In this document: positions 13,954-44,625 of the stretch, piece after piece
Position numbering within the stretch: the first letter of the stretch is position 1
Layout: each line of letters opens with the position of its first letter
DNA from: Sinohyriopsis cumingii
Lineage: Eukaryota; Mollusca; Bivalvia; Unionida; Unionidae
DNA length: 64,000 nt
Direction of reading: 5' to 3'
Assembly: GCA_028554795.2 (NCBI GenBank)
Contig: CM068842.1
Span: 50,613,574 to 50,677,573 of the forward strand
Position numbers and translations under genes: made by a program
Notes under the pieces: generated by a model
What the model was told of the DNA's origin: nothing
The model's input: the letters and a program-made list of their open reading frames with translations, nothing else
The model's database searches: none

Positions 13954-14805
13954 TACAACAACAAACAAAAGTGAACTGAGTTTAAATAACATACATCTTT
14001 CGAAGTCCAATCCAAAAAGTTCCGTGTCAGACTAAGATAAAACTGCTAAAATGCTTTTTTAAGAATAAGTTTATACTTTTTGATTTAAGTAACATTGCTC
14101 ATACTGAACAGCACACAGCATAATCACGAATCGAAATTTCAACGGCCAGATTGGGTCAAAATACGTTCAACAGTCACGATGTCTCATTACAGTGATGCGT
14201 CACTCTTACTAATGGCAGCCACAATTGAAATCACACTCGCCCTCTGTGTACGAGCTTTTAAGGTTTGAAAGCCACTGTACTGACTACAATAAAGCATTAT
14301 TTATAGTTATTTCTTTTTTCTGATAAAGATATTTCTTAGCAAGTTTCATTAGAATTGTTTCAGCCGCTCTGGAGAAGTCGAATATAGAAACTATTGACGG
14401 AAGGACGACTTCATTATCGATAATGCAGTGTAAAAAACAGTTGAACCAGTTCTGATGCTGCTTTCTGAAAACAGAGGCAAAGAGTAAAGTACTTTGATCT
14501 AAAGACAATTATATGTTATGGTCACTAGATTAAATTTACCTTGTTTAAAATTATAACTCGTGCACGATAAATTTGTGATAAAAGCCACTCTTTTATCGTA
14601 TTTTAAGGTCGTAAAGCTGCTCATTTTAAATGGACTTCGACCATAATTTTAACCACCTTCAGGTAAAGCTGGATTTGATAATGCATGTCATTAAAGACAG
14701 ACATATATCTAACTGCATGTATTCTTTGACGGACAATAGTGTACAACCGTCTAACGGCCTATATATATTATTTCTAGAATCGTGTATACGCTGATGTGAT
14801 GTGTC
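11884..14805. other. Intergenic, no gene seen
   Basis: Downstream of the chitin-binding gene. It holds a candidate AATAAA at 12459-12464 and an (AAT)n microsatellite at 13856-13951. Other ORFs are short and show no recognisable motif. Confidence 0.6.
13856..13951. repeat. (AAT)n microsatellite
   Basis: About 30 trinucleotide units with one interruption near 13892. Confidence 0.95.
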
Positions 14806-16146
14806 ACAATTACAGGGGCACCAGATGACATGATACGAGAATGATCACAATTACGGAGGTCCAGGATGTTGTGATACGATAAGGATCATAATCAGAGCGG
14901 TGCCATATGTGATACGACAATGATCAAAATTACAGAGGTCCGGGATGATGTGATACGAGAAGGATCACAATTACGGAGGTCCGGGATGATGCGAAACGAC
15001 AAGGATAGCAATTACGGAGGTCCGGGATGGTATGATACGAGAAGGATCGAAATTACGGAGGTCCTGGATGATGCGAAACGACAAGGATCGCAATTACGGA
15101 GGTCCTGAATAATGTGATACGACAAGGATCGTAATTACGGAGGTCCGGCATGATGTGGTACCACAAGGATCGCAATTATGTAGGTCCAGGATGATGTGAT
15201 ACGATAACGATCATAGTTACGGCGGTGCCATATGTGATACGACAATGATCACAATTACAGAGGTCCGGGATGATATGATACGAGAAGGATCACAATTACG
15301 GAGGTCAAGGATGATATGGTACGACAATAATCTCAATTACGGAGGTCCGGGATGATGTGAAACGACAAGAATAGCAATTACGGAGGTCCAGGATGGTATG
15401 ATACGACAAGGATCAAAATTACGGAGGTCCTGGATGATAGGAAATGACAAAGATCGAAATTACGGAGGTCTGGGGTGATGTGATAAGACAATAATCGCAA
15501 TTACAGAGGTACTGAATTATTTGATACGACAAAGATCGTAATTACGGAGGTCCGGCATGATGTGATACGACAAGGCTCGCAATTACGGAGGTCCGTGATG
15601 ATGTGGTGCAACAAGGATTGCAATTACGGAGGTCCAGGATGATGCGAAATGACAAAGATCGAAATTATGGCGGTCTGGGGTGATGTGATAAGACAATAAT
15701 CGCAATTACGGAGGCCCTGAATAATGTGATACGACAAGGATTGCAATTACGGAGGTTCGGCATGATGTGATACGACAAGGCTCGCAATTGCAGAGGTCCG
15801 TGATGATGTAATACCACAAGGATCGCAATTACGGAGGTCCGTGATGATGTGATGCGACAAGGATCGCAATTACGGCGGTCCAGGATGATGCGAAATGGCA
15901 AAGATCGAAATTACGGAGGTCTGGGGTAATGTGATAAGACAATAATCGCAATTACGGAGGTCCTGAATAATGTGATACGACAAGGATTGTAATTACGGAG
16001 GTCCGACATGATGTGATACGACAAGGCTCGCAATTACGAAGGTCCGTGATGATGTGATACCAAAAGGATCGCAATTACGGAGGTCCGGGATGATGTGATA
16101 CGACAAGGATCGTAATTACGGGCGTCCGGGATGGTGTGATACGATA
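14806..16146. repeat. Minisatellite, ~41-bp unit, ~33 copies
   Basis: Tandem copies of a unit containing GATGTGATACGACAAGGATC, then GCAATTACGGAGGTCCGG. Variants recur at fixed distances: GTCTGGGG at about 15469, 15673 and 15919 (5 or 6 units apart) and GGTGCCATATGTG at about 14899 and 15224. This shows higher-order structure. Open frames here are only by-products of the repeat. Confidence 0.95.
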
Positions 16147-17146
16147 ATTTGTGCCTATTTCTATATGTGCAAATTATGATGAGCTTGAATTTGTCAACGC
16201 GGGGTATTGGTTCTGCAGCAATTGATCTCCGTATTAAAAGTATTGCAGGGTATTTGTTATCTCAAATAACTATATTATAACGAAAATTCAAAAAGAAAGA
16301 TGCTCACGCTAAAGAGTTGTTCTCCACAAGAACCTAAACTCAGAACTCAAAGGAACACACCAACGAATAAGGACGGAAATGTTAACACGCTATCTATATG
16401 TTGCCTCTGTATTCGTTCAGGGGCATGAAAGGATTAAATCAGCCTGCCATTCAATAAATTCACCTACTTACAAATATAGCTCAATAGTTATGACAAAATA
16501 TATTATATATTTCGATCTCATGCTCTTTTGTACGTATCTCGCTGTCACGTGTATCGAGCTGGAGTGGATAAATAACCAGACAATTGCCAGGTGACAGACA
16601 AATAAAACAATACAAATCAAACAAAACAAGAAGCAAGGAAGAAGAAAAAAAGCTACAACATCACGACGGTTCTCTGACTTACTACAATCTTGATGAGAAA
16701 TGTAGTGGATATGAACAAATTACATGATCATTAAAACGCAAATGTCTCCCTCATAGAACTTATTGTATGACTTAAGTAACGGTAATTAAACAACTTCTTT
16801 GTAAATAAAACTATTTATTTTACACACAACAAGACAATTAATACTCAGTCAGTGCAATGAAGGTTTCCTAATCAGATAAAAATTAAAATGATCATTCAGG
16901 CAAAAATTCCCAAGTCATCTAATAGATTGCAAATATGTTATATTCAAATAATGGGTTGAAGAAAGTGTTCCATTCAAATAACAGATGGTATAAAATGTCC
17001 TGCTCAAATAATATGCGGCAGACAAATTAACACTCCCTATGTGGGTACGTTTATATTAGAATCCACTTAGGCGAATAATTGCAGGTAAGCGGACTGACCT
17101 GTCGCAAGAACAGAGACAAACTGACCAATCTTTAGCATAAAACGTC
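16147..17146. other. Left flank of the Polinton, no gene seen
   Basis: AT-rich sequence with no exon or RNA gene that can be supported. It ends with AAACGTC at 17140-17146, directly repeated at 32143-32149 on the other side of the element. Confidence 0.6.
17140..17146. repeat. Target-site duplication, left copy
   Basis: AAACGTC immediately before the AGCAGCAGGG terminus; the same 7 bases follow the right terminus at 32143-32149. Polintons usually make 6-bp duplications, so one base may be a chance match. Confidence 0.75.
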
Positions 17147-17358
17147 AGCAGCAGGGAAGTTCTACAGACCAGACTCCCAGACCAAAATAAAGCCTCCTAC
17201 GCGAACTTTCTCCGTAGAAGCCTCAGATTTCAAAAATAAGCCTTCCTACGAAAATTAATTTGCGTAAATTCGTCCCCGAATGCAATTTTTGTGAGCAAAT
17301 TCGATGATTCTGGACAAGTAAAAAACGAAGATTTTAGGGGGGGGGGGGAAATTTATTC
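17147..17358. repeat. Polinton left terminal inverted repeat
   Basis: 212 bp beginning AGCAGCAGGGAAGTTCTACA and running through a G12 tract (17337-17348). It pairs with 31932-32142. Differences seen: A at 17280 against G in the reverse complement of 32009, and one extra A after the G tract. Confidence 0.97.
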
Positions 17359-17394
17359 TGGTGTTTTTTTGCACAAAGGATTTGGCTGCAAGTC

Positions 17395-18060
17395 TCATGA
17401 ATAAATTTGATCAAGACCGATTCGATATCTACTACGCTGATCATGAAGATTAATCGTAATAAAACCATGCGGTGTTGCCTGGGCGCGGCTGAAGAAATTT
17501 TTGAATTTGTTTATGTCCATATCGCCGTTGCACCAAGTCTGATGAATATTTCTTAGCGTGTGAGTATCGACGCCATTGAAAACCGACAAAATGTTACAAT
17601 TGTCCCTAATTACCTTTGGAATTTGCGTATATCGCTGCGTCACGTAAATCACATCGGTGTTCTTGTGTCGGCCACGCGAGAATATCCTAGCCGGATTAGT
17701 TTGCTTATCCAGCATAACATCATCGAATACAACAAGATTATTAACATCGCCGTCTAAATTTTCCACTGATGGAGCTTCATTGATGTCTGTGATGAATTCG
17801 ATTGTGCCTTCGTCGGTATTGTCGCTAAATTCCTTTAGCACTTGATAACAACGCTGATCATCAACGGACGGTGCAACCAAATACAACTTATCCCATTTTA
17901 GCCATCGCATTATCAAATTTAGCAACAACTGCGTCTTTCCAGAACCAGACGGGCCAATAATTATCATCCTTATCGAATTCGGTAACACCGCGTTGTGTTT
18001 CACCTGCTCGCGTCGCTTCGTGGCTGAAAAATCAATTACATTCATGTTACTAGAATACAT
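17395..18060 (-). CDS. Genome-packaging ATPase (FtsK/HerA, A32-like)
   Basis: P-loop ATPase that, by homology with poxvirus A32 and other Polinton ATPases, pumps DNA into the capsid. From Met at 18060 the protein is 221 residues. The Walker A motif GPSGSGKT is at about 36-43 (catalytic Lys 42), Walker B NLVVFDDV at about 108-115, followed by SRGRHKNTDVIYVTQR, the usual motif of this family with its conserved Gln. The frame stays open further upstream from TTG codons, but homologues begin close to FSATKRR, so Met at 18060 or at 18045 is the likely start. The ATG at 18060 overlaps, on the opposite strand, the ATG of the zinc-ribbon gene in one CATG. It lies about 36 bp inside the left terminal repeat. 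Confidence 0.93.
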   Translation of the reverse strand: MYSSNMNVIDFSATKRREQVKHNAVLPNSIRMIIIGPSGSGKTQLLLNLIMRWLKWDKLYLVAPSVDDQRCYQVLKEFSDNTDEGTIEFITDINEAPSVENLDGDVNNLVVFDDVMLDKQTNPARIFSRGRHKNTDVIYVTQRYTQIPKVIRDNCNILSVFNGVDTHTLRNIHQTWCNGDMDINKFKNFFSRAQATPHGFITINLHDQRSRYRIGLDQIYS

Positions 18061-18235
18061 GGATCTATATTGTGTTAAGTGTCGCACGCGCACAGCTACG
18101 ATAAATCCAATCGAAATTGTCACACGCAATAACAGGAACGCAATTGCAGGAGAATGCGAAGTTTGTAAGACACGCAAGTTCAGATTTGTAAAAAAAAAAA
18201 TAGAAGAACCGGAGGAGACATTACCGCCTCCATGA
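18059..18235 (+). CDS. Small zinc-ribbon protein (DUF5679-like)
   Basis: 58-residue protein with two CxxC knuckles, C5-x2-C8 (YCVKCRTR) and C33-x2-C36 (GECEVCKTRKFRF). The central stretch includes RNNRNAIAG. This layout matches the short DUF5679 zinc ribbons found in large DNA viruses and phages, whose function is unknown; the assignment is from memory of the pattern. A Pro/Glu-rich tail ends the protein. The start was chosen at ATG 18059 because it immediately precedes the first knuckle; the frame is open further upstream, but only inside the opposite-strand ATPase gene. The stop TGA overlaps the next ATG as ATGA, a virus-like coupled arrangement. Confidence 0.75.
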   Translation: MDLYCVKCRTRTATINPIEIVTRNNRNAIAGECEVCKTRKFRFVKKKIEEPEETLPPP

Positions 18236-18567
18236 AAAATCTACCTGGGTTGCCCTGGGCGAAATATCCCGGAGAAAAGCATCTGCCAGGATACAATTAC
18301 TGCGGACCTGGTACGAGGCTCGATATAAGACTCAACGATAATAATCAACCAAATCCCGGCGAAGATCCAGTAAACGCCATCGATAACGCGTGTTACTATC
18401 ACGATCTTGCGTATCGCAGCGAGGATTTACAACAAAGACATCTCGCTGATATTAGGCTAATTCATGCAATAGACGCGATTCCTGACAAAAGTTTCAAAGA
18501 AAAATTGGCAACCTGGTTGATAAAAGGCGCGATGAAAGGTAAATTAGTACTCGGCGCTGGTAAATAA
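18232..18567 (+). CDS. Parvovirus-type phospholipase A2 domain protein
   Basis: 111-residue protein whose core resembles the PLA2 domain of the parvovirus VP1 unique region. The calcium loop is YNYCGPGT (residues 21-28) and the catalytic helix is DNACYYHDLAY (51-61), with the His57-Asp58 pair. LPG at 18-20 precedes the loop, as in parvoviral domains. In parvoviruses this enzyme hydrolyses phospholipids to let the virion leave the endosome; a similar role for this particle is inferred. Here it is a free-standing gene, not fused to a capsid protein. It overlaps the zinc-ribbon gene by 4 bases (ATGA), and the integrase ATG begins 2 bases after its stop, suggesting a single plus-strand transcription unit. 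Confidence 0.88.
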   Translation: MKNLPGLPWAKYPGEKHLPGYNYCGPGTRLDIRLNDNNQPNPGEDPVNAIDNACYYHDLAYRSEDLQQRHLADIRLIHAIDAIPDKSFKEKLATWLIKGAMKGKLVLGAGK

Positions 18568-18569
18568 TA

Positions 18570-19520
18570 ATGGAGCAAATATATTATTCTCCGCGAGGAT
18601 TCTGGAGAGGAAAATCAGCAATTGCCAAACTCGCTAAAGCCGCTAAAGTAAAACAATCCACCGCTGAATCGTGGTTATCGAAACAGGCAGTCTGGCAAAT
18701 ATATCTTCCTCCGCCTAAGAAAATACCATATGCAAGTTTCACCGTCAGTGTCCCTAATGAAGTCCATCAGGCTGATTTAATGTTTCTTCCTTACGATACC
18801 GTCGACGGAGTCACATATAAATATGTCTTGACAGTCGTTGATATCGCCAGCAGGTATAAAGAAGCGGAACCGTTATCGAATAAAACAGCAACGGGGATCG
18901 CTAAGGCGTTTAGCGAAATTTATTCACGATCTCCATTAACATGGCCGAAGCTTCTCCAGGTTGATCCAGGTCGAGAATTTCTTGGCGCGGTTACTTCACT
19001 GATGAAAAAGAACAATGTTAAAATCCGTCGCGGTATTGTAGGTGTTCATCACAATCAAGCTATCGTTGAGAGATTCAACAAAACTCTTGCAGAACGATTA
19101 TTCGGATACCAATACGCGCGTGAATTTATTCAAGATAATCGATCTCATGATTGGGTATCAAGATTGCCTCATGTGATTAACGCACTAAATAACGAAGTAA
19201 CACGAACAATAGCAATGAAACCCGCAATTGCAATTACAAAATCGAATATACCCCTAAAGCGAGATTCCACAATTCCGCCTGTGCTAGGTAGCGTCACGGT
19301 CCGGTATTTATATAAAGAAGGCGAGGCCGAAGGAGGAAGAAAAAGAGCAACCGATCCAAATTGGAGCGTTACGACACATAAAATATCCGCCGTAACAAGA
19401 TCATCGGGAAGACCAGCAATTTATTTCCTAGATTCGCTAGCGCCACAACGCGGATTTACCAAGGAGGAATTACAAATAATACCGAAAGATACTCAACTAC
19501 CGCCAGCGTCATTAATGTGA
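18570..19520 (+). CDS. Polinton integrase (retroviral-type rve, DDE)
   Basis: 316 residues. The N-terminal segment YYSPRGFWRGKSAIAKL with WLSKQAVWQIYLPPP is the standard start of Polinton integrases. The rve core has D69 (HQADLMFLP), D132 (LQVDPGREF) and E167 (QAIVERFNKTL), the DDE triad with 34 residues between the last two. The C-terminal region (about 236-305), including WSVTTHKISAV and IYFLDSL, resembles the SH3/chromo-like tail that binds DNA or chromatin. It catalyses insertion of the element using its terminal repeats. All catalytic residues are present, so the gene looks intact. Its last 28 bases overlap the end of the convergent polymerase gene. Confidence 0.97.
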   Translation: MEQIYYSPRGFWRGKSAIAKLAKAAKVKQSTAESWLSKQAVWQIYLPPPKKIPYASFTVSVPNEVHQADLMFLPYDTVDGVTYKYVLTVVDIASRYKEAEPLSNKTATGIAKAFSEIYSRSPLTWPKLLQVDPGREFLGAVTSLMKKNNVKIRRGIVGVHHNQAIVERFNKTLAERLFGYQYAREFIQDNRSHDWVSRLPHVINALNNEVTRTIAMKPAIAITKSNIPLKRDSTIPPVLGSVTVRYLYKEGEAEGGRKRATDPNWSVTTHKISAVTRSSGRPAIYFLDSLAPQRGFTKEELQIIPKDTQLPPASLM

Positions 19521-22465
19521 AACCGAATTCTACCTAACTGAGATAATTTTCTTACTCTTGACACGGCTAAATACACTAAATTTGACCAGGAAATTCTATC
19601 ATCGACAATCCAAACTTGGCCATCTACGGTTAATCCCTGCGACGAGTGTATCGTTGTTGCATATCCTAATTTCCATGGCGATCTTTCTGCGTTTATCGCG
19701 TCATTAACAAGATTAATATCAACAAGAATAATATCGTTCAGTACCAAGATCTTTTCCTCTCCGCAGGGTAGAGTAACACTGATATTTTGTTTCCTGGTAT
19801 CAGCGGGCCTGTAACACAACGGCACCTGCAATGTTGGAAATTTCTCGCAATGAAGCTTGAATAACATATCCTGAATAACATCGCGAACAATTTTCCTACT
19901 AGCAACAATCAGATGATCGGGACGCCACAAATTTAGAAAAATATCCATCGGAGTCTCGTCGATTATTCTTCTCATCACATCGCATTGAAACTTATTCGGT
20001 TGTAATCGAATTATTTTCTTAAACTCAGTCAGTAAAATATCATCGGATCTATAATCGGCGTCGATTTCCTCATAATAGTCAACGAAGTTCCTGAGCCATT
20101 CGTAAGGAGATTCTCCATCAATAGGATCAGGCTGGCCATGATCTCCGCACATTACCACGGCGGTATTTTTCCCCTCCAGCCAGGTCAGGAACGATTTTAA
20201 TACAACTAAATTTACTGTGCAAATTTCATCAAATATTATAATTTTATTGATATATTTATTTCCCATACGAGCCGAATCCCATAATCCACCGCTGTATTTG
20301 AAATAACTGTGATACGTGCAAGAATCAACGTCGCGTTGCCTTATTTCTCGCGCTAATCTGTGAGTTGGAGTCAACACTATCATATCAGATTTCGCAAATA
20401 AATTTATCGCTCGCGTTGTTTTACCGCTACCACCAGGACCATTCATGTAAACGAATTTGTTACGTGAAATCGGGTCAAATGCAGATGCAGCCGTCGATAT
20501 TTCCTCGCATTTATCTCGATGAAATTTATCGCAATCTTCGACATCAGCGTCCTCACAGTAATCTAGGATATCCTCGTTTTTTATCCTCCAAGTTCCCCAA
20601 GAACCATCAGCGATTAAATTATCCAGCCTATACTGGTATTTCTTATCGATATAAAACGAGTCCGTTGCGACCCTTACCGCGATATCAGAAAATTTATTTA
20701 TCATCGACAGTAAATTTATGCTCACATAAGCGAGCATCGATGATCTCAAATGCGTATACTGCGCTGATTCTCCGTCGAGATAGCTAATTACGGTACCCAA
20801 CTTTACTCCGTCAATAATAATATTTTCTCTGTTGCAGAATATTCCTCGCGACACCGTATCGGCAATAATAAAGTCCATCTCGGCATCGTTGATAAACAAC
20901 CTAGCGTGTCGGTGTTTATGATCAACGGATCCTCCTTGAGTAAATTTGCCAATTATTTTTCTTCCGATATCTTTCGCGTTTTCACAATCCGTCGGTAGCC
21001 ATACTTCAGTTTGTTTCCTATATGATATAATCGCCTCGCTCACCGTCAACGATACTAACATTGACGAATCCAGCATATACCTCAACAACACCGTAGGGAC
21101 CCATCTGCGTTGAGATAAATGCCGACCGAACCAAATATAACAAATTTTATGTAAATTTTCAGCAAACTCGAATGAAGTTACATAAGCGAATCCCGTCATG
21201 ACAAAATCAGGCAACGGTCCGTTAATTGCTACCCTTGTCATTTCGTTGGTGGGATGGCCAAATTTAGCAAAATAATCCGCACAATCACCATATCCGAGGA
21301 AACTTCCAGGATAGCACGCGCTCATATCAACGGAGATCATATCTTCGAAATAATACTTGGTATTCCACAATCCGCCATGGCCGTATTCGATACAACTAAG
21401 TTGAATATCAGTGAGGTATTCGTTTCTCGTAGGTTTCCACGAATTTCTTTCTCTGGCAGCGTGAGCAGCAACAGACGGAACCGTAAAACAATTCGTTAAT
21501 AACTGATCAGGATTTGACGAATATTTCACCGCGATATTTTTCATAGATTCATGTAATTTTTCATCACGGTAAATATCTCCTCGCGGCAATATAAACTGAT
21601 CATATCTTTCTTCGCTCGAAAATAACCAAACCGATATCGGATCAGATGCGGATAATATTTTGATATATCGGAACATAGCATCGGAATTGTCCTTTGCGCC
21701 TTCCACGGGATAAAATTTAACAACCCGATCTCGCGGAAATATCATTACCGACTGCGACCACGCATGTGAATTATGATCAACAATTTCGATTGGTACTCCT
21801 CGAGATCTATACGGCGACGAATATAATATTTCTCCCGATAGCGTTTTCACGGTAATAGGAAATTTAAGTTTCTTGCTCAACACAGCAACATCGTCAATCG
21901 ATGCGCCATCAACAACTGTCTTCGCCCATGAATTAATTTTATTCAATCTCAACTGTGTCAATCCAGATCCACGACGAGCGTTTTTCATATGCTCGATAAC
22001 ACGCTCAGCCACGCAATTTATCATCGGCGATTCTTTCATCGCAGGTAGATTTTTCATGTCGGGATTATTATTTAGCCGATAAATTCCATAAACAACAGCG
22101 CTAGATGGATACGCCCTAGCATAATAAGGACCGTCAATTCCCAATAATAATCCTGGCTTCGAATTTTTATCAAGAACGACGTTTTTCTTACTGCCACGCA
22201 CTGGATCTCGTTTATCACGAATAATCCAAGTATCGTCAGGCATTTGTGCAATAAATTTTATTCCGAAGATAAATCGTTCTTCTTTATGTTCGTTTTTTAT
22301 ATGCTCGATTATCTTCTTCGCTCGCTCCAGATTCATCGTAGCATCAATAGAATTAGTTTTCCATGTCGACCAAGTGTGAACCGCTCCATCATCGAAAAAT
22401 TCTTTTTTGGCACGATCAACCTCAGGAATGATATATTCTGCCTCATCAAGATCAAATGTATCCAT
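19493..22465 (-). CDS. PolB DNA polymerase fused to SF1 (Pif1/RecD-like) helicase
   Basis: 990 residues in one frame. The middle carries protein-primed-type family B polymerase motifs: YGHGG (361-365, the YxGG motif), motif A SVDMSACYPG (378-387, Asp380), an LRSSMLAYVSINLL stretch downstream of the motif B position (573-586), and motif C VATDSFYID (599-607, Asp602). The usual first Asp of the DTDS motif is Ala. The C-terminal third is a superfamily 1 helicase: Walker A GPGGSGKT (676-683), Walker B IIIFDE (742-747), motif III GDHGQPDP (774-781), HSSQGLT (940-946) and motif VI VYLAVSRVRK (964-973). The first ~350 residues show no clear 3'-5' exonuclease motifs. It presumably replicates the element, with the helicase opening the duplex. 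Most Polinton PolBs I know lack a fused helicase. The start ATG lies 33 bp from the divergent cysteine-rich gene. Confidence 0.9.
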   Translation of the reverse strand: MDTFDLDEAEYIIPEVDRAKKEFFDDGAVHTWSTWKTNSIDATMNLERAKKIIEHIKNEHKEERFIFGIKFIAQMPDDTWIIRDKRDPVRGSKKNVVLDKNSKPGLLLGIDGPYYARAYPSSAVVYGIYRLNNNPDMKNLPAMKESPMINCVAERVIEHMKNARRGSGLTQLRLNKINSWAKTVVDGASIDDVAVLSKKLKFPITVKTLSGEILYSSPYRSRGVPIEIVDHNSHAWSQSVMIFPRDRVVKFYPVEGAKDNSDAMFRYIKILSASDPISVWLFSSEERYDQFILPRGDIYRDEKLHESMKNIAVKYSSNPDQLLTNCFTVPSVAAHAARERNSWKPTRNEYLTDIQLSCIEYGHGGLWNTKYYFEDMISVDMSACYPGSFLGYGDCADYFAKFGHPTNEMTRVAINGPLPDFVMTGFAYVTSFEFAENLHKICYIWFGRHLSQRRWVPTVLLRYMLDSSMLVSLTVSEAIISYRKQTEVWLPTDCENAKDIGRKIIGKFTQGGSVDHKHRHARLFINDAEMDFIIADTVSRGIFCNRENIIIDGVKLGTVISYLDGESAQYTHLRSSMLAYVSINLLSMINKFSDIAVRVATDSFYIDKKYQYRLDNLIADGSWGTWRIKNEDILDYCEDADVEDCDKFHRDKCEEISTAASAFDPISRNKFVYMNGPGGSGKTTRAINLFAKSDMIVLTPTHRLAREIRQRDVDSCTYHSYFKYSGGLWDSARMGNKYINKIIIFDEICTVNLVVLKSFLTWLEGKNTAVVMCGDHGQPDPIDGESPYEWLRNFVDYYEEIDADYRSDDILLTEFKKIIRLQPNKFQCDVMRRIIDETPMDIFLNLWRPDHLIVASRKIVRDVIQDMLFKLHCEKFPTLQVPLCYRPADTRKQNISVTLPCGEEKILVLNDIILVDINLVNDAINAERSPWKLGYATTIHSSQGLTVDGQVWIVDDRISWSNLVYLAVSRVRKLSQLGRIRFHINDAGGS

Positions 22466-22498
22466 TATTATATTTTAGACAAATGTTTAAATTATATA
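22466..22498. promoter_or_regulatory. 33-bp divergent intergenic region
   Basis: The only space between the start of the polymerase-helicase gene (-) and the cysteine-rich gene (+). It is AT-rich, with TATATTTTAG and AATTATATAAT, so it could hold TATA-like elements for both directions. Promoter function is inferred from position only. Confidence 0.4.
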
Positions 22499-22846
22499 AT
22501 GCAATGCAAATGGATACCAATCGGATCAACAAAATCATGCGACAAATCCTGCAGAGGCGATTATTGTGGCGCTCACATATATGCAATTCGACGAGGCAGT
22601 AAAGGACCACAACGGTGTTTAGTTTGCCAAGTTGGCACGCGAGGAAAAACTCGATTGTGTTTATCCTGTGGAGGGAAAAATTATCGAGAATTGCGCCGAT
22701 ATTACAAAAAGAAATCTTCCTCGATAATAACTTGCGAAGAAGATTATATTAATCGATTCAAGGCAAATTATGATTTAAACAAACAGAATATTGTATATGG
22801 AACTGAAATCGACGATTCCTCCAGCAACAATCACGCACGAGTATAG
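22499..22846 (+). CDS. Cysteine-rich zinc-binding protein, unknown function
   Basis: 115 residues from ATG 22499. The frame is open upstream but only across the opposite-strand polymerase gene, and the Cys pattern begins right after this Met. Cysteines lie at 3, 14, 18, 23, 40, 43, 54 and 57; the pairs CLVC (40-43) and CLSC (54-57) look like a zinc ribbon. A basic patch RRYYKKK follows and the tail is acidic and polar. It may bind nucleic acid, but I do not recognise the family. It is the first gene of a plus-strand trio and overlaps the endonuclease gene by 50 bases in another frame. Confidence 0.7.
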   Translation: MQCKWIPIGSTKSCDKSCRGDYCGAHIYAIRRGSKGPQRCLVCQVGTRGKTRLCLSCGGKNYRELRRYYKKKSSSIITCEEDYINRFKANYDLNKQNIVYGTEIDDSSSNNHARV

Positions 22847-23351
22847 ATCTCATCCAACCATTGATGGATATGAAGCATCTTCGGATGGTGTTGTCAGAAA
22901 TATCAAAACGAAAAATCAAGTCGGTAGTGTTAATAGATTTGGATATCTCAAAATTACCATCGGTAATGATAAAAAACGAAGATATACGACTTATTTCTGT
23001 CACAGGTTCGTATACGAGTGTTATCACGGACCAATAAAAATCGGTCTTGTTATCGACCACATTGACGGAAATAAACTTAACAACAAACTATCCAATCTCC
23101 GGGCTGTAACTCAAAGTGTAAATTGTAAATTTAATGGCGGATATCGATCAGCTAAGGCGGTAAAATCATTAAATCGAGAAACAAATGAAGAAATTGTATT
23201 CACGTCGATGAACGCCGCCGCAAGGTATTTTGGTATTAATCAAGCATCGGTGCAACGCGCGGCAGAAAAAATAATCAACGCAGCATTTTCCTATGAATTT
23301 GGCGAATGGATCGAGTTTTACTATATTCCGATAATATCCGAAGAAAATTAA
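22797..23351 (+). CDS. NUMOD4-HNH-NUMOD1 homing-type endonuclease
   Basis: 184 residues. The N-terminal NUMOD4-like motif GYEASSDGVVRNIK is followed by GYLKITI. The HNH nuclease core is CHRFVYECYHG...VIDHIDGNKLNNKLSNLR (His and Asp at about 88 and 87, followed by the Asn-rich segment). The C-terminal NUMOD1-like helix-turn-helix is FTSMNAAARYFGINQASV. This is the standard architecture of free-standing homing endonucleases of phages and large DNA viruses, which cut DNA at a recognition site and copy themselves across. A TTG at 22791 also keeps the frame open, but ATG 22797 is the first Met. It lies in the element's plus-strand early-side block. Its presence in an animal Polinton suggests acquisition from another virus. 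Confidence 0.9.
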   Translation: MELKSTIPPATITHEYRSHPTIDGYEASSDGVVRNIKTKNQVGSVNRFGYLKITIGNDKKRRYTTYFCHRFVYECYHGPIKIGLVIDHIDGNKLNNKLSNLRAVTQSVNCKFNGGYRSAKAVKSLNRETNEEIVFTSMNAAARYFGINQASVQRAAEKIINAAFSYEFGEWIEFYYIPIISEEN

Positions 23352-23373
23352 TTGAATATTACAAAAATTATAT

Positions 23374-23751
23374 ATGGACGAAGAAAATATAAATAACATC
23401 ATCGAAGCCATCGATGATCTGAGAAAGAAAAAAATAAATCTTCCATCGGATCTAGACACGAATAAAATTCGATCCGAATTCGAGACGATTGTTCAAGGGA
23501 AACTCGAATACAAATACACGCTGCCGTCAGAGTACAAATTAATAAAAAAGATCCAAATTGCCATGTATCAATCACTTGCGACTGTCAGCGATGATCAAAT
23601 CGAGGATTTTGTTAAATTATCTACGCTAGTGGAAAAAGCTAGGTTAATTTTATCGGATGCATATGAATCAAAAAAAATTACAAGCTCGCGTGTCAGACAA
23701 CTGAAAAAACTTGTCGATGAGAGCAAGGCCAAGGAAATTTCTGATCCTTGA
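23374..23751 (+). CDS. Helical hypothetical protein
   Basis: 125 residues, rich in Lys, Glu, Asp and Ile, predicted by eye to be almost wholly alpha-helical (IIEAIDDLRKKK, IQIAMYQSLATV, VRQLKKLVDES). It has no cysteines, membrane segment or enzymatic motif, and I do not recognise a family. It begins 22 bp after the endonuclease stop, in the same direction, and ends at a convergent junction with the structural block. A virion or replication accessory role is possible, but nothing visible supports one over another. Confidence 0.6.
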   Translation: MDEENINNIIEAIDDLRKKKINLPSDLDTNKIRSEFETIVQGKLEYKYTLPSEYKLIKKIQIAMYQSLATVSDDQIEDFVKLSTLVEKARLILSDAYESKKITSSRVRQLKKLVDESKAKEISDP

Positions 23752-23886
23752 ATTTTCCTGAAGATTTCCGCAAACAAAAAAATACAAAAATTAAAAAAAT
23801 CTTCCAATTTTGAAAATTTCCCCGGTTTTTATTTATTTTTTTGGCCCATTTTTCCCTGGTGTACAGATTCAAAAAATCTGCGATTC
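23752..23886. terminator. Convergent 3' junction with polyadenylation-like signals
   Basis: A/T-rich 135 bp between the plus-strand trio and the minus-strand block. TTTATT at about 23829 gives AATAAA for minus transcripts, and ATTAAA near 23790 may serve plus transcripts. Function is inferred from position. Confidence 0.45.
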
Positions 23887-25437
23887 TCACGATTTTACCA
23901 GCAGATTGATACTTATCGTTTCCCCGCGTATATCAAGCAAATTTCCTTTCTGATCTGTTAGTTTGAAATTTATCCTCGACAATAATCGATTGTGGCATCG
24001 CAGGTAAAACGGATTCACTGGTTCTTTTATTATCAAATAACCAGGAGATGCGCTAGGTGAAAACGAATACAAGATAAATCCCTGCTGTGCTTGATTTGAC
24101 TCTGACGAATCAACATTGTAGCTGCCCTCGACAACATCCGCGTGAAGATAAATCGCGATAACTTCCGTTATGTTAACGATACCTGGCGAGATATGCCGCC
24201 CCTGCCCGGCGGGATCGTTATTGTGTTTGAGAATTAATTCCGATTGTATTTTTTTAGTCCACGCGGCATGTAACTTCGGAAATAAATCATCGATGGTATC
24301 AGTAACAGATTTTCTCATTTTATCAACATCATAATCGGGAAATTTGAAATTTGGTAGCGTTTCCTCGGTTAAACCAAATACTCTCATGAATTTTTGTTTT
24401 TCTCCTGAATTTCTGATCAACTCGAATTTGCTAATAGGAAGAACATAATCGGCAATTGATATATCGTCGACTATCGCCTGAATAAACATACCATGATAAT
24501 ATTCAACATCATTCGCGAGTTGATTTAAAATTTTCACGCGTTTGATAATTTCGCTACATGAGCCTGATTTATTTAAGATGCATTCATGAAAGGATTCCCG
24601 CAATAAATTTAAATGTAATTTATGTTCTTGATTAAATTCGTTGATGGTTCTTCTTATCGAGATGCCTTCTATGGGGAATATTTTCCTGTTAATGTGGGTA
24701 GCGTCGAAGATTTCCACGCCGGGGGAAATTTTGGGAAGAACCAACCACGAGAGAATTTTTTCGTCCCTAAAAGTAAAAGCGAACATTAACATGTTAAATT
24801 TGTGGATGTTCACGAAGCTGATGGCAGTGTGGATTAGAGACTTGTGTTTGATATCTCCGTACCATCCTTCGTCGGTGGTAAAATCTTCTTTTTTTGGTTC
24901 CGGTTGCTCTGGAGGAGCTTCCTCGTACCAACCTGGAATAATAAAATCAGATTTTTCTGGTTTTGCCAGAGGTGCGATTTCAGGCCAACCTAATATGGTC
25001 CTAATCGATGATTGGTAAATATCTACCATGTAAGGTGATTTCACTTCTATCATCGATGATAGTGTTGGATCGTGCGAGGATATCTTTATTCCCGGGGTAG
25101 CATCGCCGGTTATATTTGATATTCTGGTGGTAAATTCCTTACCTAGTTGCTCAATTTCGTAACTGCCTGTTGGTATGCCAACGACGATCCAATCAGGTGT
25201 TCCATCGGGTTTGCTTTTGTTGGCAAAAACAAGTGAATTGTTTGATAATAATTTGCCAAATGATTTCGATCTAACATTGGGCCAGCTATTGTAGACACGC
25301 AATTGTGTTAACGCAATTTCTTTGACGCTGATTGGTGTTGAAAAATTAATGCTAAATTCTGGATTGGTTGAGCTTAACGATATTAGTGTTGTTGTCGGCG
25401 GTGTCGTGTTTGTCACGATCTGGGCTAGTTCGGACAT
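23887..25437 (-). CDS. Putative minor virion structural protein
   Basis: 516 residues. The N-terminal ~150 residues show IALTQLRVYNSWPN (41-54) and VVGIPTGSYEI (85-95), a pattern I associate with proteins of presumed structural role that recur in Polinton-type elements. A Pro-rich linker near 160-185 includes GWYEE and GWYGD repeats. The C-terminal half is mixed and ends with a beta-rich segment. It could be a penton or vertex protein, because no separate single jelly-roll penton gene is obvious elsewhere in the block, but that is inference. Its 5' end overlaps the next upstream gene by 86 bases in another frame. No frameshift is seen. Confidence 0.5.
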   Translation of the reverse strand: MSELAQIVTNTTPPTTTLISLSSTNPEFSINFSTPISVKEIALTQLRVYNSWPNVRSKSFGKLLSNNSLVFANKSKPDGTPDWIVVGIPTGSYEIEQLGKEFTTRISNITGDATPGIKISSHDPTLSSMIEVKSPYMVDIYQSSIRTILGWPEIAPLAKPEKSDFIIPGWYEEAPPEQPEPKKEDFTTDEGWYGDIKHKSLIHTAISFVNIHKFNMLMFAFTFRDEKILSWLVLPKISPGVEIFDATHINRKIFPIEGISIRRTINEFNQEHKLHLNLLRESFHECILNKSGSCSEIIKRVKILNQLANDVEYYHGMFIQAIVDDISIADYVLPISKFELIRNSGEKQKFMRVFGLTEETLPNFKFPDYDVDKMRKSVTDTIDDLFPKLHAAWTKKIQSELILKHNNDPAGQGRHISPGIVNITEVIAIYLHADVVEGSYNVDSSESNQAQQGFILYSFSPSASPGYLIIKEPVNPFYLRCHNRLLSRINFKLTDQKGNLLDIRGETISINLLVKS

Positions 25438-25882
25438 TATTAATATTCATTTGTTCAATCTCCGAGTAAATACTGATCATTGCCGAAAATTCTAGATCGG
25501 AGATAACGCCATCGTTGAGACTCTCGGAAAGCAGCGATGATAATTTCGAATACGCGTCGTTGACCTGGGATAATTTGTTTTTGTACAATGATAACTTTTC
25601 ACTCATGCACGAGGATATCTTTTTCGCTACGATATTGAGAACACCAGCGATTATCGTTGTTGACGAGATTATTATCGTTGCTACGATCGGCGCTATCGTT
25701 GTTACCGCGAATAAAATTATTCCAGCACCAGCGACTACCGCGGATACCGCGTACACGGCGACGTCAATGATAACTAATCTACGCTGGTATTTTTTTATTT
25801 TTATCTGATACTCGTCTAGGAGTTTTTTTAGCGAATCCTGCCATGACCTCGCCTGATTGTAGCGGTAATCGGATGCGGTCAT
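25352..25882 (-). CDS. Membrane-hairpin protein
   Basis: 176 residues. A basic, coiled-coil-like N-terminus (LKKLLDEYQIKIKKYQRR) leads into a hydrophobic block at 36-86 that reads as two transmembrane helices (about 37-60 and 63-86) with a very short turn. A second helical region (96-145) and a polar Asp/Asn-rich tail follow. No enzymatic motif is seen. Position inside the virion block suggests a membrane-active or internal-membrane protein, but this is unproven. It overlaps the downstream 516-residue gene, so coupled expression is likely. Confidence 0.65.
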   Translation of the reverse strand: MTASDYRYNQARSWQDSLKKLLDEYQIKIKKYQRRLVIIDVAVYAVSAVVAGAGIILFAVTTIAPIVATIIISSTTIIAGVLNIVAKKISSCMSEKLSLYKNKLSQVNDAYSKLSSLLSESLNDGVISDLEFSAMISIYSEIEQMNINNVRTSPDRDKHDTADNNTNIVKLNQSRI

Positions 25883-25902
25883 TTATTAATCTACGATAAC
25901 AA

Positions 25903-27180
25903 TTACGGATTACCAATTGTGTTTATCCGGGATAGATATTCGAAAATTGCAAAATAGGCAATTTGTTCTGTGAAAGATCTATCTGGTGGATCTAACATGA
26001 AAAAAGTGTTGCTATTTTCTTTTAACGAAATAATAAAAAATCCGGGGTAAAATTCATGAAATTTATAACCAGAATTTGGTTGTCTTTCTTGTACTGGTCG
26101 TACCTTAAATTTTATCTCGGAGATAATATATACTCGATATACACCAGTAACTGGCGCGGTAAAAGTAATTTCGTTACTCGCAGGTGTCCAGGTAAGATTA
26201 TATGTCCTAAACACAAATAGCACATGACAGGGTAGATTTTTTGTTTCTACCTCCGTTGGTATCGAAATACGCGATAATCTTCCAAGATTCATTGACGATA
26301 TTTTTGTGCTAATATCACTAATTTTTGTAGTTGCGTCGAAAAGTTTCGCGTTGATTTCTTGAATTTTTCCATCGTTCGCTGATGTATCGACCTTTTGACG
26401 CGCTAATTCACGTACCATGTTAATATCCTCGTTAATTTTTTTCGTTTTCTCATCTATCGATTCACGTATCGCGTTAACCCCCTTGGTAAATTCGGGAACA
26501 ACAACATCGCTGAGTTTATTAATTTCCTCGCTGATTTTTTTGTTGAGATCGTCGATTGTTGTTCTCTGACCCAACGAGATATTTATTTCGTTAATTTCGG
26601 CAAGAATATTAGTAATTTCCTCGTTGATTTTTTTTATTTTCTCACTGAGATCGCTGTGTGTAGTTGAGGAGGTATCGATGAATTTTTTTATATCCTCGTC
26701 GAGTTTTTTACTGAGATTTTTTGATACCTCCTCGAGTTTTTTAAGATCACTATTTAGCTTGTTAAATCTTTTTGTTATTTTTTCCTGGAAATCATCAGTT
26801 GGTGCCTTATCGGACTTTAGAAGCATCGCCGCTGATAACTCACTATTTTTTTGTTTTATATCCACGAGATCGGCCTTTGGTGGGAACTCCGCGATAATAT
26901 CGGCGATATCAGCGATAGATTTTAATACCATCTCAGATTGGCGAGTAAATTGACTGATATGATCATTATATTCTTCTCGCTTGATTATATCAGTTATTTT
27001 GACATTGCTGGTGTGTAATCTTCCCTCGGTATTTTGAAAAACAGCAACTTCGCCAGGATCTACTTCTGACAGCGATAGGAGATTGTTAATATCGCTCTTG
27101 GTTGCAAATTTTGATGTATCGATGTCGCCTGTTTCTGTTTTTTCCTTCCTGTAGAGGGATCTACCATAAATGTCAACCAT
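25903..27180 (-). CDS. Fibre-like protein: coiled-coil stalk with C1q/TNF-like head
   Basis: 425 residues. A short N-terminal tail (MVDIYGRSLYRK) precedes a long run of heptad-rich coiled coil from about 60 to 300 (for example KKINEEITNILAEINEIN). The C-terminal ~110 residues form a beta-rich head with ITFTAPVTGVYRVYI (338-352), which matches the C1q signature F-x-x-P-x-x-G-x-Y. Tail, trimeric stalk and C1q/TNF-like head are the plan of an adenovirus-style attachment fibre, so a receptor-binding role is inferred from architecture alone. It follows the protease gene with an 8-bp overlap (ATGGTTGA). Bivalve genomes are rich in C1q genes, so host capture of the head is possible. Confidence 0.65.
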   Translation of the reverse strand: MVDIYGRSLYRKEKTETGDIDTSKFATKSDINNLLSLSEVDPGEVAVFQNTEGRLHTSNVKITDIIKREEYNDHISQFTRQSEMVLKSIADIADIIAEFPPKADLVDIKQKNSELSAAMLLKSDKAPTDDFQEKITKRFNKLNSDLKKLEEVSKNLSKKLDEDIKKFIDTSSTTHSDLSEKIKKINEEITNILAEINEINISLGQRTTIDDLNKKISEEINKLSDVVVPEFTKGVNAIRESIDEKTKKINEDINMVRELARQKVDTSANDGKIQEINAKLFDATTKISDISTKISSMNLGRLSRISIPTEVETKNLPCHVLFVFRTYNLTWTPASNEITFTAPVTGVYRVYIISEIKFKVRPVQERQPNSGYKFHEFYPGFFIISLKENSNTFFMLDPPDRSFTEQIAYFAIFEYLSRINTIGNP

Positions 27181-27583
27181 GATATTTATCTACGGTATAT
27201 TCAAATAAAATTTTGTTATAAGGGTCGGATGATTTTGAAATTGCGTCAAGAACATTAATTGACTCTGGGCCGCATATCGGTGGATCCGCTAATGTTTGTG
27301 TTGGAAGAGTCGAATACCAAATCGGAATATTCAGCGAAGACACGTAGTTGATAAATTCTTTCGGTGGTGCTAATCCATATGAGTCAAAATAAACGACTTC
27401 GCGAGGATTAATCGCGTAGGCAACCCAATGCGTGCCAGGGCCGGTATTTTTATCGAGATTTATTATTCCCGTCTCGGTAGGGTTTGGTTTTTCTGGTAGT
27501 TGATCCCGCATAAATACGCCTCTGAAAAATTTTATTTTTTTATTCTTTGCTTCGCTAAGTAGATCTAAATTTGAATAGGCCGT
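27173..27583 (-). CDS. Adenain-type cysteine protease (Ulp1-like), non-AUG start likely
   Basis: Capsid-maturation protease. From the first ATG (27511) it has 112 residues, with the His motif GPGTHWVAYA, the Asp motif YFDSYGL, a Gln in LPTQ and the nucleophile in PPICGPES. However, the open frame runs back to 27643, and the codons before that Met read SNLDLLSEAKNKK and FFRGVF. These match the N-terminal segment normally present in adenain and Polinton proteases, so the ATG is too far in. No in-frame ATG exists upstream. An ACG at 27581-27583 in strong context (A at -3, G at +4) would give 136 residues. Alternatively, a -1 frameshift at the A-AAA-AAG heptamer in the upstream gene would join the frames. 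Confidence 0.88.
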   Translation of the reverse strand, partial: TAYSNLDLLSEAKNKKIKFFRGVFMRDQLPEKPNPTETGIINLDKNTGPGTHWVAYAINPREVVYFDSYGLAPPKEFINYVSSLNIPIWYSTLPTQTLADPPICGPESINVLDAISKSSDPYNKILFEYTVDKYHG

Positions 27584-28023
27584 GCTAATCTTAGGCCGGA
27601 TCCGTATGGGGGGCGTCTTAGATAAAGGCCGTTCCCCTTTTTTTTACCGTATCTTCCTCCCATCACTTTTTGTGCTAATTTGGAACCTATACCTCCGAGC
27701 GCACCTAATCCTACTGCTTTTGCGGCTGCCGGAAGAATCCCAGCTAGCAGTCCCGGAAGAGCGGCAAATAGAGGCAAAATACCGCCTGTTTTGACCATAT
27801 CTCTGATGGCGCCTATGGAAAGGCTCACATGAACGCCAGAATTTGCTGATTTGGCCTTGGTAAATCGTTCACGTTGACCTCTAGTTAGCGACAGTTTGTT
27901 AGGCCCACCGTGAATCTGATCGTTTTTCAGTGTTAATTTCATACCGCATCGCTTTGATATCGCTGTTTGGAGTTTTTTCATCTGACCTGGGGTCAGAGTT
28001 ACACTGACGTGTTCGTATGGCAT
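27565..28023 (-). CDS. pX-like virion core protein
   Basis: 152 residues. Two similar N-terminal units, VSVTLTPGQMKKLQTA and LSLTRGQRERFTKA, then VHVSLSIGAIRDM, lead to TGGILPLFAALPG and an Ala/Gly/Leu-rich hydrophobic region (80-120). A basic tail follows (GGRYGKKKGNG, then GSGLRLARP). This repeated LT-x-x-Q pattern plus GG-(F/I)LP segment is a recurring Polinton/adintovirus protein compared with adenovirus pX or core proteins. LGGIG at about 109-113 fits the adenain consensus (M/I/L)xGx|G. It is highly basic, so DNA condensation or membrane contact is plausible. Its 3' end overlaps the protease frame, and codons 127-129 form the A8 tract discussed there. Confidence 0.72.
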   Translation of the reverse strand: MPYEHVSVTLTPGQMKKLQTAISKRCGMKLTLKNDQIHGGPNKLSLTRGQRERFTKAKSANSGVHVSLSIGAIRDMVKTGGILPLFAALPGLLAGILPAAAKAVGLGALGGIGSKLAQKVMGGRYGKKKGNGLYLRRPPYGSGLRLARPIQI

Positions 28024-28056
28024 ATTAATAATCGCTTAATCTAAATTTGGAATTTG

Positions 28057-29478
28057 TCACATGTTTTCGACAGGAGCATCGATGACTCTCATTCTGCCGC
28101 TGATTCCTTCCAAGATCATTGTTCTATCGCTGAGGATCACCGCAACTGCTCTATATAAATTATTTCCTGTGCGAATTCTGGCTTTGAAATGAATATCAAC
28201 AACGGATTGCTTTATCAGGTCGAGATGCTCCAGGGAAAAGTAGTATATAGGATAGCGAGTATTAAAATCTAACTGTGATATTTGCAATCCGGTATCGATA
28301 TTTTGATCGCGACCCATAAAACTTAGCAATCGATAATACGCGCGAGCTGTCGAATAATTTTCAAAATTAATTGATATTTCCTCTGATGGTTCTTGTTGGC
28401 CATTTACTCTCAGTGACACGTTTGTTGCGTGGATACTATCGAATATCATATGGCTGTATAATTGATGATATCTTCGCGTGTGCAAAAAAGCGATAAAGAT
28501 ATGCCTAGGTGCAGAGGTACCTTGCTGCGATGCAATACGCCAAGTAAAATCACCATCAATATCGGTAGTTATGGAATCTGTTGTTGTTGTTAGCCATGAC
28601 ATGACAGATTTACCGCCTTGGTTCATAAATGACAATAATTTTTCTTCTTCGATTATTGATGGAGTTATCGCTGGCATCCACAAGGTAAATTTAAGTAATT
28701 TTACCTGGCCGGCATTTGGGGGATCGAGATTGGCATCTATCACGTTAGTATTGTAATTGATAACACCTTCTCGCCAGATAGCATCATCGCTATTTCCTTT
28801 TCTGATAAGTGTTATGGTATGTTTCGCTCCGTAGATAATTTTTCTGAAATGCCTGCAAAATCCGAATATATGAGATAACGGAATAGCACAAGAAAATCTT
28901 CTGCGATCTCCTTGCAGCATAGATTTTCGCGTGGCAAATCCGAGATTATAATCATTATTAACGCCAACAGGGAGATCTTGGATTACAACGAGGGCTGGAT
29001 TGGGGTGGGTGCGATCGACGGGTTGTCTGATGTCAAGCGGCCTACTATCGGGACGATCAGAATTATCTTTGGCAAACATCATACTAGGACCAGCTGATCT
29101 AGTAAAATCATCCGAGTATCTAGCTAGGCCTATTATCGTCGTTGCTAAGTCAACATCATTAGTAATTGACTCAATCTCTCTTCCATCAATCATGTAAGTT
29201 GCGCTCTTGAATAACGCCATAATACCGTTGTTAACAAATCCGACTCTAAAATCTGCTGCATAGGCGGTATTATCCGCTTTAACAACTTCCCCGGTAACTT
29301 CGATATATGCCTCAGATGGAAGAAAATATCTTGTTGTATCGTGAACTTGAATTTCCAAGCGATTAGATGTATTTGGTTCAACTGCATCGTACGAGAAATA
29401 CTGGAAATCTCGCACGGATGTGTCTCTACCTACAGGCTCGTCCATGTCGAACACTTCATTTGACACTTGTGCGAACAT
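28057..29478 (-). CDS. Major capsid protein (double jelly-roll type)
   Basis: 473 residues, largely beta-rich. FQYFSYDAVEPN (25-36) leads to RYFLPSEAYIEVTGEV (50-65) and FVNNGIMALFKSATYMIDG (81-99), the characteristic segment of Polinton and adintovirus hexon-like proteins. Later segments such as FGFCRHFRKIIYGAKH and FTLWMPAITPSI fit the second jelly roll. It is somewhat shorter than many Polinton capsid proteins but has no break. It would form the icosahedral shell, with the adjacent pVI-like and pX-like proteins inside. It lies 33 bp from the pX-like gene and 15 bp from the pVI-like gene in one minus-strand run. Confidence 0.86.
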   Translation of the reverse strand: MFAQVSNEVFDMDEPVGRDTSVRDFQYFSYDAVEPNTSNRLEIQVHDTTRYFLPSEAYIEVTGEVVKADNTAYAADFRVGFVNNGIMALFKSATYMIDGREIESITNDVDLATTIIGLARYSDDFTRSAGPSMMFAKDNSDRPDSRPLDIRQPVDRTHPNPALVVIQDLPVGVNNDYNLGFATRKSMLQGDRRRFSCAIPLSHIFGFCRHFRKIIYGAKHTITLIRKGNSDDAIWREGVINYNTNVIDANLDPPNAGQVKLLKFTLWMPAITPSIIEEEKLLSFMNQGGKSVMSWLTTTTDSITTDIDGDFTWRIASQQGTSAPRHIFIAFLHTRRYHQLYSHMIFDSIHATNVSLRVNGQQEPSEEISINFENYSTARAYYRLLSFMGRDQNIDTGLQISQLDFNTRYPIYYFSLEHLDLIKQSVVDIHFKARIRTGNNLYRAVAVILSDRTMILEGISGRMRVIDAPVENM

Positions 29479-29493
29479 TTATTATTAAGAATA

Positions 29494-29967
29494 TCATCTA
29501 AAACGAAGACCACTGCCTGAAATAAAACTTGTATTAGCAACTTCATTTGCGAGATTTGTCTTAGCAACTTCCTGCGCTAGATTTGTCTTAGCAACTTCCT
29601 GTGCTAGATCGTTTATTTTTTTATTTGCCGCGTCGTTTATGACTTTGCTGATTTCGGGTGGCATTTCTCTGGTGCTAGGTAATTTGACGGGTTGTTTTTT
29701 GCGCATTAAATTTAATATTTTACTTTTGACAACATTGAAGCCTTTACTGGCCAAATTACCGATACCAGAGATAGCAGTCTCGCCGATCTTTCCTATTGCT
29801 TTTGACGCGAATTGCTTGATCACGGGTCCGATTTTAGGTATTACTCGCGTAACGAGACTTCCAATGATATCGCCGAATCCATTACCGTGAATATATTTGT
29901 ACACGGGCAATCTAGAGTTTACTATGCGGACCTGTTTAGGTCTGCGCTGATGTTTGTGAACAATCAT
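29494..29967 (-). CDS. pVI-like minor capsid protein precursor
   Basis: 157 residues with a basic N-terminus (VHKHQRRPKQVR), an amphipathic middle (about 31-88, for example DIIGSLVTRVIPKIG and KQFASKAIGKIGETA) and a tail with three imperfect copies of a 9-residue unit, LAQEVAKTN (121-129, 130-138, 139-147). Two sites fit the adenain consensus (M/I/L)xGx|G: IHGN|G at 26-30 and ISGS|G at 149-153. Adenovirus pVI is likewise cut near both ends to release a membrane-lytic middle. Homology is suggested by layout rather than strong sequence identity. It sits next to the capsid gene. Confidence 0.68.
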   Translation of the reverse strand: MIVHKHQRRPKQVRIVNSRLPVYKYIHGNGFGDIIGSLVTRVIPKIGPVIKQFASKAIGKIGETAISGIGNLASKGFNVVKSKILNLMRKKQPVKLPSTREMPPEISKVINDAANKKINDLAQEVAKTNLAQEVAKTNLANEVANTSFISGSGLRFR

Positions 29968-29987
29968 GTTATTTCAATTGTGTTGTT

Positions 29988-31318: not shown

Positions 31319-31526
31319 ATCTTCAGCAAATTGACCAATTCGATCTATGGAATACAGTGTCGAGAGCGGTCGTGATATTATTTCCCATCCCTCATCGGTG
31401 AAATTTTCTCTTAAATTCTCGATACTAAACTTCCCTTTTTTTACTCCCGGTTTTCCTAATACGGTTTTTCCCTTACTACCTATTTTATAAGCAATTGCAG
31501 GTTGTCGCCCTTGTGCTGCTGCTGCT

Positions 31527-31542
31527 ATTGCTAATTAGCAAT
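31527..31542. repeat. 16-bp perfect palindrome
   Basis: ATTGCTAATTAGCAAT equals its own reverse complement. It contains one of two in-frame stops between the 99-residue ORF and the open extension of the next gene. It could be a stem-loop or a binding site; function is unknown. Confidence 0.7.
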
Positions 31543-31555
31543 CGCTAATTATATA

Positions 31556-32142: not shown

Positions 32143-32149
32143 AAACGTC

Positions 32150-44616: not shown

Positions 44617-44625
44617 AAAATGAGG

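Follow-up and report, generated by a model that had tools for sequence, protein, structure and literature searches.

A fused polymerase-helicase gene in a polinton-type element

We analysed a stretch of 64,000 nucleotides (the window) from the bivalve Sinohyriopsis cumingii (GenBank assembly GCA_028554795.2, contig CM068842.1, positions 50,613,574 to 50,677,573 of the forward strand). It holds a 14,996-bp polinton-type element at positions 17147-32142 that looks intact. The polinton hallmarks are present, namely inverted repeats with a short target duplication, an RVE-family integrase, a double jelly-roll (DJR) capsid protein, a packaging ATPase and a weakly matched protease. The protein-primed PolB (pPolB) of the element is present only as a palm fused to a superfamily 1 (SF1) helicase. 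An earlier note, made from the letters of this DNA alone, had described one uninterrupted 990-codon frame that joins a PolB polymerase to an SF1 helicase within a polinton. Both points hold: the frame on the minus strand at 19493-22465 consists of 990 codons and a stop without interruption, and the fusion within a polinton-type element is borne out by the profile match of the palm, the SF1 motifs and the hallmark genes. The gene and the regions of its product are as follows.

19493-22465, minus strand: pPolB-SF1 helicase fusion, 990 residues plus stop; frame, homologues, alignment, conservation and profile comparison
22136-22465, minus strand: residues 1-110, candidate terminal-protein (priming) domain; by conservation only, with Ser/Thr102 near the conserved P104 and G105
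21431-22135, minus strand: residues 111-345, vOTU-like region; C151 and H231 conserved in all 30 long family members
20531-21430, minus strand: residues 346-645, probable pPolB palm; hhalign of residues 320-650 to 87 pPolB rows, P 6.2e-5; motif A D380, motif B region 498-508, motif C ATDS 600-603, WRxKxE 626-631
19511-20530, minus strand: residues 646-985, SF1B (RecD/Pif1/Dda-like) helicase by sequence; motifs I, Ia, II, III, V and VI and profile matches

That an assembly or chance artefact joined two neighbouring genes into this long frame is extremely improbable. At the base composition of the element, 990 stop-free codons would arise by chance with a probability of ~4 x 10^-30. Moreover, a protein search retrieved 39 homologues, 25 of which span 87% or more of the query as the same continuous fusion, with identities of 39-60%. 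An artefact was therefore rejected. We also rejected an N-terminal extension upstream of the ATG, as the frame opens merely three codons earlier; the near relative P0001 starts ~20 residues earlier, and some distant relatives possess much longer N-termini.

An iterated alignment search, in which the 7997 best candidates were scored, added one protein and brought the homologues to 40. The family rows number 41 in total, of which 30 (>950 residues; the long members) were used for conservation and profiles, 34 for alignment A2 and 22 for alignment A1. A locus whose polymerase is annotated in two pieces (L044) was set aside. The 22-sequence alignment, built from 22 of 40 family sequences, displays the same domain order, with P0004, P0030, P0031 and P0033 being incomplete in the helicase.

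The C-terminal region carries SF1 helicase motifs

The set of SF1 motifs listed in the earlier note was recovered in full: GPGGSGKT (676-683), FDE (745-747), GDHGQ (774-778), HSSQGLT (940-946) and VYLAVSRVRK (964-973). The limits of motifs I, Ia, II, III, V and VI are our own assignment. The core elements GGSGKTT, DE, GDxGQP, HSxQGLT and AVSRV are kept in at least 90% of the 30 long members. The helicase scored above the cut-offs of Pfam AAA_30 and AAA_19, matched a Dda-like PHROG family with an E of 5.4e-17 and aligned with Pif1 structures in a profile search, while its match to NCBIfam RecD2 (E 4.1e-7) lies far below the cut-off of that model. hhalign to three phage SF1 helicases yielded an E of 2.5e-15 for the helicase region, compared to 0.06 for the palm and 0.34 for the N-terminal region. 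A tblastn search against phage records gave weak helicase matches only, among the 30 of 168 records listed. Judging from its motifs and matches, residues 646-985 are an SF1B-type helicase, and the polarity known for the matched families suggests that it would move 5'-to-3'.

The central region matches protein-primed polymerases

Standard scans gave no polymerase match in Pfam (34 members), NCBIfam (four proteins) or PDB sequence searches, nor among the 25 PHROG families listed out of 30, some of which are undescribed. This silence speaks against a polymerase. We therefore built a dedicated pPolB set, comprising phi29, PRD1 and others from annotated records together with IMG/VR loci. A first set of 14 sequences gave a P of 0.0063. 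The 87-row set, in which phi29 possibly stands twice, was cut from 110 open reading frames (ORFs) of at least 480 residues among 122 hits. Against it, residues 320-650 reached the P given above at a probability of 65% over 231 columns, with the YxGG region, motif A (DVNSLYP in pPolBs, DMSACYP here), motif B, the pre-C helix and motif C (DTDSI and ATDSF, respectively) in register. The palm scored 43.3, compared to maxima of 28.2 in 60 column shuffles and 27.2 in 60 block shuffles and to 14.6 for the reversed profile, so that none of the 120 shuffles reached its score. The earlier note had proposed to examine the three regions separately; the N-terminal and helicase parts remained without a match in the 87-row set (P 0.10-0.40). 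With moderate confidence, we assign residues 346-645 to a pPolB palm.

Among the PolB motifs named beforehand, motif A (D380, followed by MSACYPG) and motif C (ATDS, 600-603) stood, whereas the supposed YxGG stretch reads EYGHGG. The position of its Tyr is occupied by Gly362, with Gly in 27 of the 30 long members; H363, G364 and G365 are invariant (30/30), and EYGHGG thus aligns with YxGG without the Tyr.

The N-terminal region contains an invariant Cys/His pair

The earlier note had held that the N-terminal exonuclease is lost or unrecognisable. At the sequence level, profile comparison with the 87 pPolB rows revealed no exonuclease signature there, and no Exo I string is conserved. Two of 30 members carry the Exo I-type string D.E[TS] in this region, versus 69 of 87 pPolB rows within their first 150 residues. 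A hidden exonuclease within residues 1-345 was rejected on the grounds of the missing profile match and the missing conserved string. As points on the other side, the motif test covered Exo I alone among Exo I, II and III, and 18 of the 87 pPolB rows lack the string as well.

The absence of a signature agrees with the claimed loss. However, to call the first 345 residues unrecognisable would be too simple, because residues 111-345 contain a conserved pair, N150-C151-V152 and H231-N232, whose Cys and His are invariant in the 30 long members and fit a vOTU protease. The vOTU Cys and His have been placed in helix 1 and strand 4, respectively (PMC11071308). Lying before the palm, C151 and H231 fit the vOTU protease of the Tlr1-like class.

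Residues 1-110 are the least conserved part of the protein in each of six comparisons (52.9% identity to P0001). Within them, 27 of 28 sequences have Ser or Thr at position 102, close to P104 (26/28) and G105 (28/28). Priming residues are described as alcoholic residues near Gly or Pro (PMC11071308), and by this resemblance S102 is a candidate priming residue, no more. The N-terminal region returned no Pfam match, and its PDB matches had an E of 0.41 or worse. The vOTU and priming assignments thus rest on conservation and analogy, which counts against them.

Relatives occur in molluscs and mostly carry an HNH-type pattern

Four of the 40 homologues bear an organism name, and all four are from molluscs: Elysia crispata (P0030, P0033), Elysia marginata (P0035) and Sinanodonta woodiana (P0031). 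They reside on contigs of 340 kb to 143 Mb and are partial, covering 53-80% of the query; the helicase is cut short early in P0031 and lacks its middle part in P0030. In a midpoint-rooted tree of the 41 rows, the window protein and the Sinanodonta protein share a seven-row clade (support 100/100), the latter on a long branch; the Elysia proteins are found in other clades. A Sinanodonta relative was likewise found for the capsid protein of the element.

Searches of IMG/VR with the integrase and with the fusion and capsid proteins, each of the latter two also as an alignment, confirmed no relative. A scan of GTDB confirmed one of 31 matched stretches, which is 38% identical and contains several broken frames. 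This degenerate relative of the fusion gene (L126, JAADDH010000070.1) lies in a contig of a 'Candidatus Diapherotrites' archaeal metagenome-assembled genome; it probably represents misbinned eukaryotic DNA or contamination.

An HNH-type pattern is present at the C-terminus of 26 of 29 aligned relatives (all except P0002, P0004 and P0024), and up to 26 of 34 family members have a match in PHROG nuclease families. The window protein lacks this tail. The idea that the HNH domain persists in another part of the window was considered and rejected, since outside the gene no tblastn match of the 41 family proteins fell below E 0.46. The element does contain a phage-type HNH/NUMOD endonuclease next to the fusion gene (22791-23351).

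Gene content of the element and its surroundings

The remaining features of the element are listed by position.

17140-17146, no strand: left copy of the 7-bp target-site duplication, AAACGTC, just outside the inverted repeats and identical to 32143-32149
17147-17353, plus strand: left terminal inverted repeat, 207 bp, beginning 5'-AGCAGCAGG, 99% complementary to 31936-32142
17395-18177, minus strand: A32/FtsK-type packaging ATPase, start codon uncertain; Pfam Pox_A32, E 4.6e-12
18232-18567, plus strand: phospholipase A2-like protein; Pfam Phospholip_A2_4, E 7.9e-14
18570-19520, plus strand: RVE-family integrase; Pfam rve, E 8.4e-8
22499-22846, plus strand: Cys-rich zinc-ribbon-like ORF, divergent from the fusion gene; weak Pfam DZR_2 match, E 0.021, below cut-off
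22791-23351, plus strand: free-standing HNH/NUMOD homing endonuclease; Pfam HNH_3, E 4e-15; PHROG HNH, 1.8e-28
27173-27511, minus strand: adenain/Ulp1-like maturation protease with GTHW, FDSYG and CG; PDB 6lj9 (cysteine protease S273R), E 0.0028
28057-29478, minus strand: DJR capsid protein; Pfam DJR-like_dom, E 2.2e-14; 22 homologues
31936-32142, minus strand: right terminal inverted repeat, pairing with 17147-17353
32143-32149, no strand: right copy of the 7-bp target-site duplication, AAACGTC

Both termini (17147-17155 and 32134-32142) are tandem AGCAGC trinucleotide repeats, the ends reading 5'-AGCAGCAGG. Judging from the near-identical terminal repeats and the open frames, the data suggest a recent insertion. 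The integrase and fusion genes are convergent, and their 3' ends overlap by 28 bp. The phospholipase A2-like ORF is of a type that we take to be the one found in parvovirus capsids. In the protease, GTHW, FDSYG and CG are presumably the maturation-protease motifs; its further matches are weak (adenain in the PDB, E 0.55; Pfam Peptidase_C5, E 0.018, below cut-off). Pfam and PHROG scans of the element identified no minor capsid protein, and Rfam and tRNA scans gave no matches. Just outside the left end of the element lies an array of 41-bp tandem repeats (14784-16228), and the flanking DNA also contains a reverse transcriptase fragment on the plus strand (44620-45219; RVT_1, E 7.2e-22).

The fusion protein resembles Tlr1-like helicases

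Tlr1-like helicases (pPolB-S1H) are described from polinton-like viruses (PLVs), transpovirons and the Tetrahymena element Tlr1; they lack an exonuclease, follow the order terminal protein (TP) or another domain-vOTU-PALM-S1H and have a changed motif C (PMC11071308). The same source reports C-terminal GIY-YIG or HNH domains in different PLVs; we do not treat these domains as universal. The window protein likewise consists of a pPolB palm followed by an SF1 helicase, with no exonuclease found and the first Asp of motif C changed; its family shares the Cys/His pair upstream of the palm and, in most aligned relatives, the HNH C-terminus. Tlr1 is also described with RVE integrase, ATPase and capsid genes, as in the window element. 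In contrast to the described Tlr1-like helicases, the relatives found here are molluscan, and the window protein is short (990 residues) and devoid of an HNH tail. PLVs known by 2021 were reported to lack a protease gene, whereas the window element has a protease match.

Canonical animal polintons and adintoviruses resemble the window element in combining a pPolB palm with RVE integrase, capsid, ATPase and protease, and published models of their pPolB include N-terminal TP and vOTU domains like the candidate regions here. However, the canonical polinton pPolB is described as TP-vOTU-EXO-PALM without a helicase (PMC11071308), while the window protein has a fused helicase and no exonuclease signature. 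The SF1-pPolB of an Oxyrrhis marina PLV, reported in 2025, is a single protein too, but its helicase is N-terminal and the full exonuclease is kept. The pPolB of mavirus-type virophages is alike in its TP-vOTU-PALM order, the missing exonuclease and the same missing motif C Asp, and differs in that an SF3 helicase is encoded by a separate gene (PMC11071308).

By architecture, the window protein is a pPolB-S1H, or Tlr1-like helicase. We file it there because the testable features agree, except for the HNH tail; this exception counts against the assignment, as does the comparison with Tlr1 by published description only. The earlier note had seen in the fusion a divergent polymerase lineage. As a new type of lineage this was not supported, since a pPolB palm with an SF1 helicase and without exonuclease had already been published (Tlr1-like helicase, PMC11071308).

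Activity of the palm and origin of the fusion

We consider it likely that the fusion protein is the sole recognised replicase of an integrated polinton-type virus, a pPolB-S1H by architecture that serves protein-primed copying. The palm could instead be catalytically dead and kept as a scaffold, leaving a helicase (with a protease) in an element that a host polymerase copies. This is reportedly the reading that a 2016 study by Krupovic, Yutin and Koonin gave of the Tlr1-like family, its title speaking of an 'inactivated DNA polymerase'. It would explain why the first Asp of motif C is Ala600 in 30 of 30 long members, compared to DTDS in 85 of 87 pPolB rows. Moreover, motif B is degenerate (NSLYGKF in phi29, RKIIGKF here) and the YxGG Tyr is missing, so that activity is not certain. 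In three distant relatives, the palm is also less conserved than the helicase (44.2 versus 49.4%, 44.2 versus 49.7% and 42.5 versus 47.9% identity). These features weigh against an active enzyme. However, D380 in motif A, D602 as the second Asp of motif C, and K507, W626, K629 and E631 are invariant in all 30 long members. In three near relatives, palm identity exceeds helicase identity (68.0 versus 63.8%, 68.6 versus 65.1% and 62.7 versus 61.4%), so that selection probably acts on the palm, a point in favour of an active enzyme but no proof of it. According to Krupovic and colleagues, Tlr1-like proteins lack this first Asp of motif C, and so do mavirus PolB and other active PolBs (PMC11071308). 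Furthermore, Pfam recognised no polymerase in the 16 other ORFs of the element scanned, with the reservation that such a scan could overlook a divergent polymerase, as the fused palm itself escaped Pfam. Weighing both sides, we regard a dead palm as unlikely.

A second question is whether the fusion arose independently of the Tlr1-like helicases, in an animal polinton lineage that lost its exonuclease and gained an SF1B helicase. Such an origin would agree with the lack of a confirmed relative in IMG/VR, which we assume to contain PLVs, and with the molluscan source of the four organism-named homologues. The separate, reverse-order fusion in Oxyrrhis also speaks for it. Against it stand the domain order, the motif C change, the Cys/His pair and the HNH C-terminus of most aligned relatives, all as described for Tlr1-like helicases. 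We regard an independent origin as possible but doubtful. The wider proposal, that a distinct animal-infecting polinton lineage spread through molluscs and replaced its proofreading replicase by a helicase-polymerase independently of the protist Tlr1-like proteins, appears rather unlikely. Polinton-like elements are found alongside insect entomopoxviruses (PMC12220804). The same paper assigns two capsid proteins of animal polintons to the PgVV group of PLVs, so that an animal element of the Tlr1-like kind is not wholly unexpected. Helicases fused to an unknown domain are mentioned in protist elements (PMC10120064). The open-access literature covered, which further included PMC12721341, PMC3671162, PMC11071296, PMC4642659 and PMC7805220, yielded no animal host for a Tlr1-like helicase among the matches listed, a weak negative given this coverage.

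Proposed replication and implications

On the reading of the fusion protein as a protein-primed replicase, the linear genome would be copied from both ends. An N-terminal priming domain would initiate at the 5'-AGCAGC termini, whose tandem trinucleotides would lend themselves to jump-back priming, as in adenovirus. As judged by the domains, the vOTU-like protease region may then free the primer from the enzyme, the palm may copy the linear DNA, and the attached 5'-to-3' helicase may help to displace the other strand, in place of proofreading.

The novelty apparently lies in the setting, an animal-associated polinton, and not in the kind of protein. The element apparently extends the helicase-polymerase replicase from protist and algal PLVs, transpovirons and a ciliate element to polinton-type elements with relatives in animal genomes. 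It thereby bears on the published idea that exonuclease loss goes with helicase gain. If the replacement did occur independently, small DNA viruses would repeatedly and predictably exchange exonuclease for helicase as they evolve. A practical warning is that standard profiles can fail to detect polinton polymerases of this lineage, as Pfam and NCBIfam overlooked the palm. As an apparently recent element with open frames, it would allow priming, protease, polymerase and helicase regions to be studied in one compact replicase.

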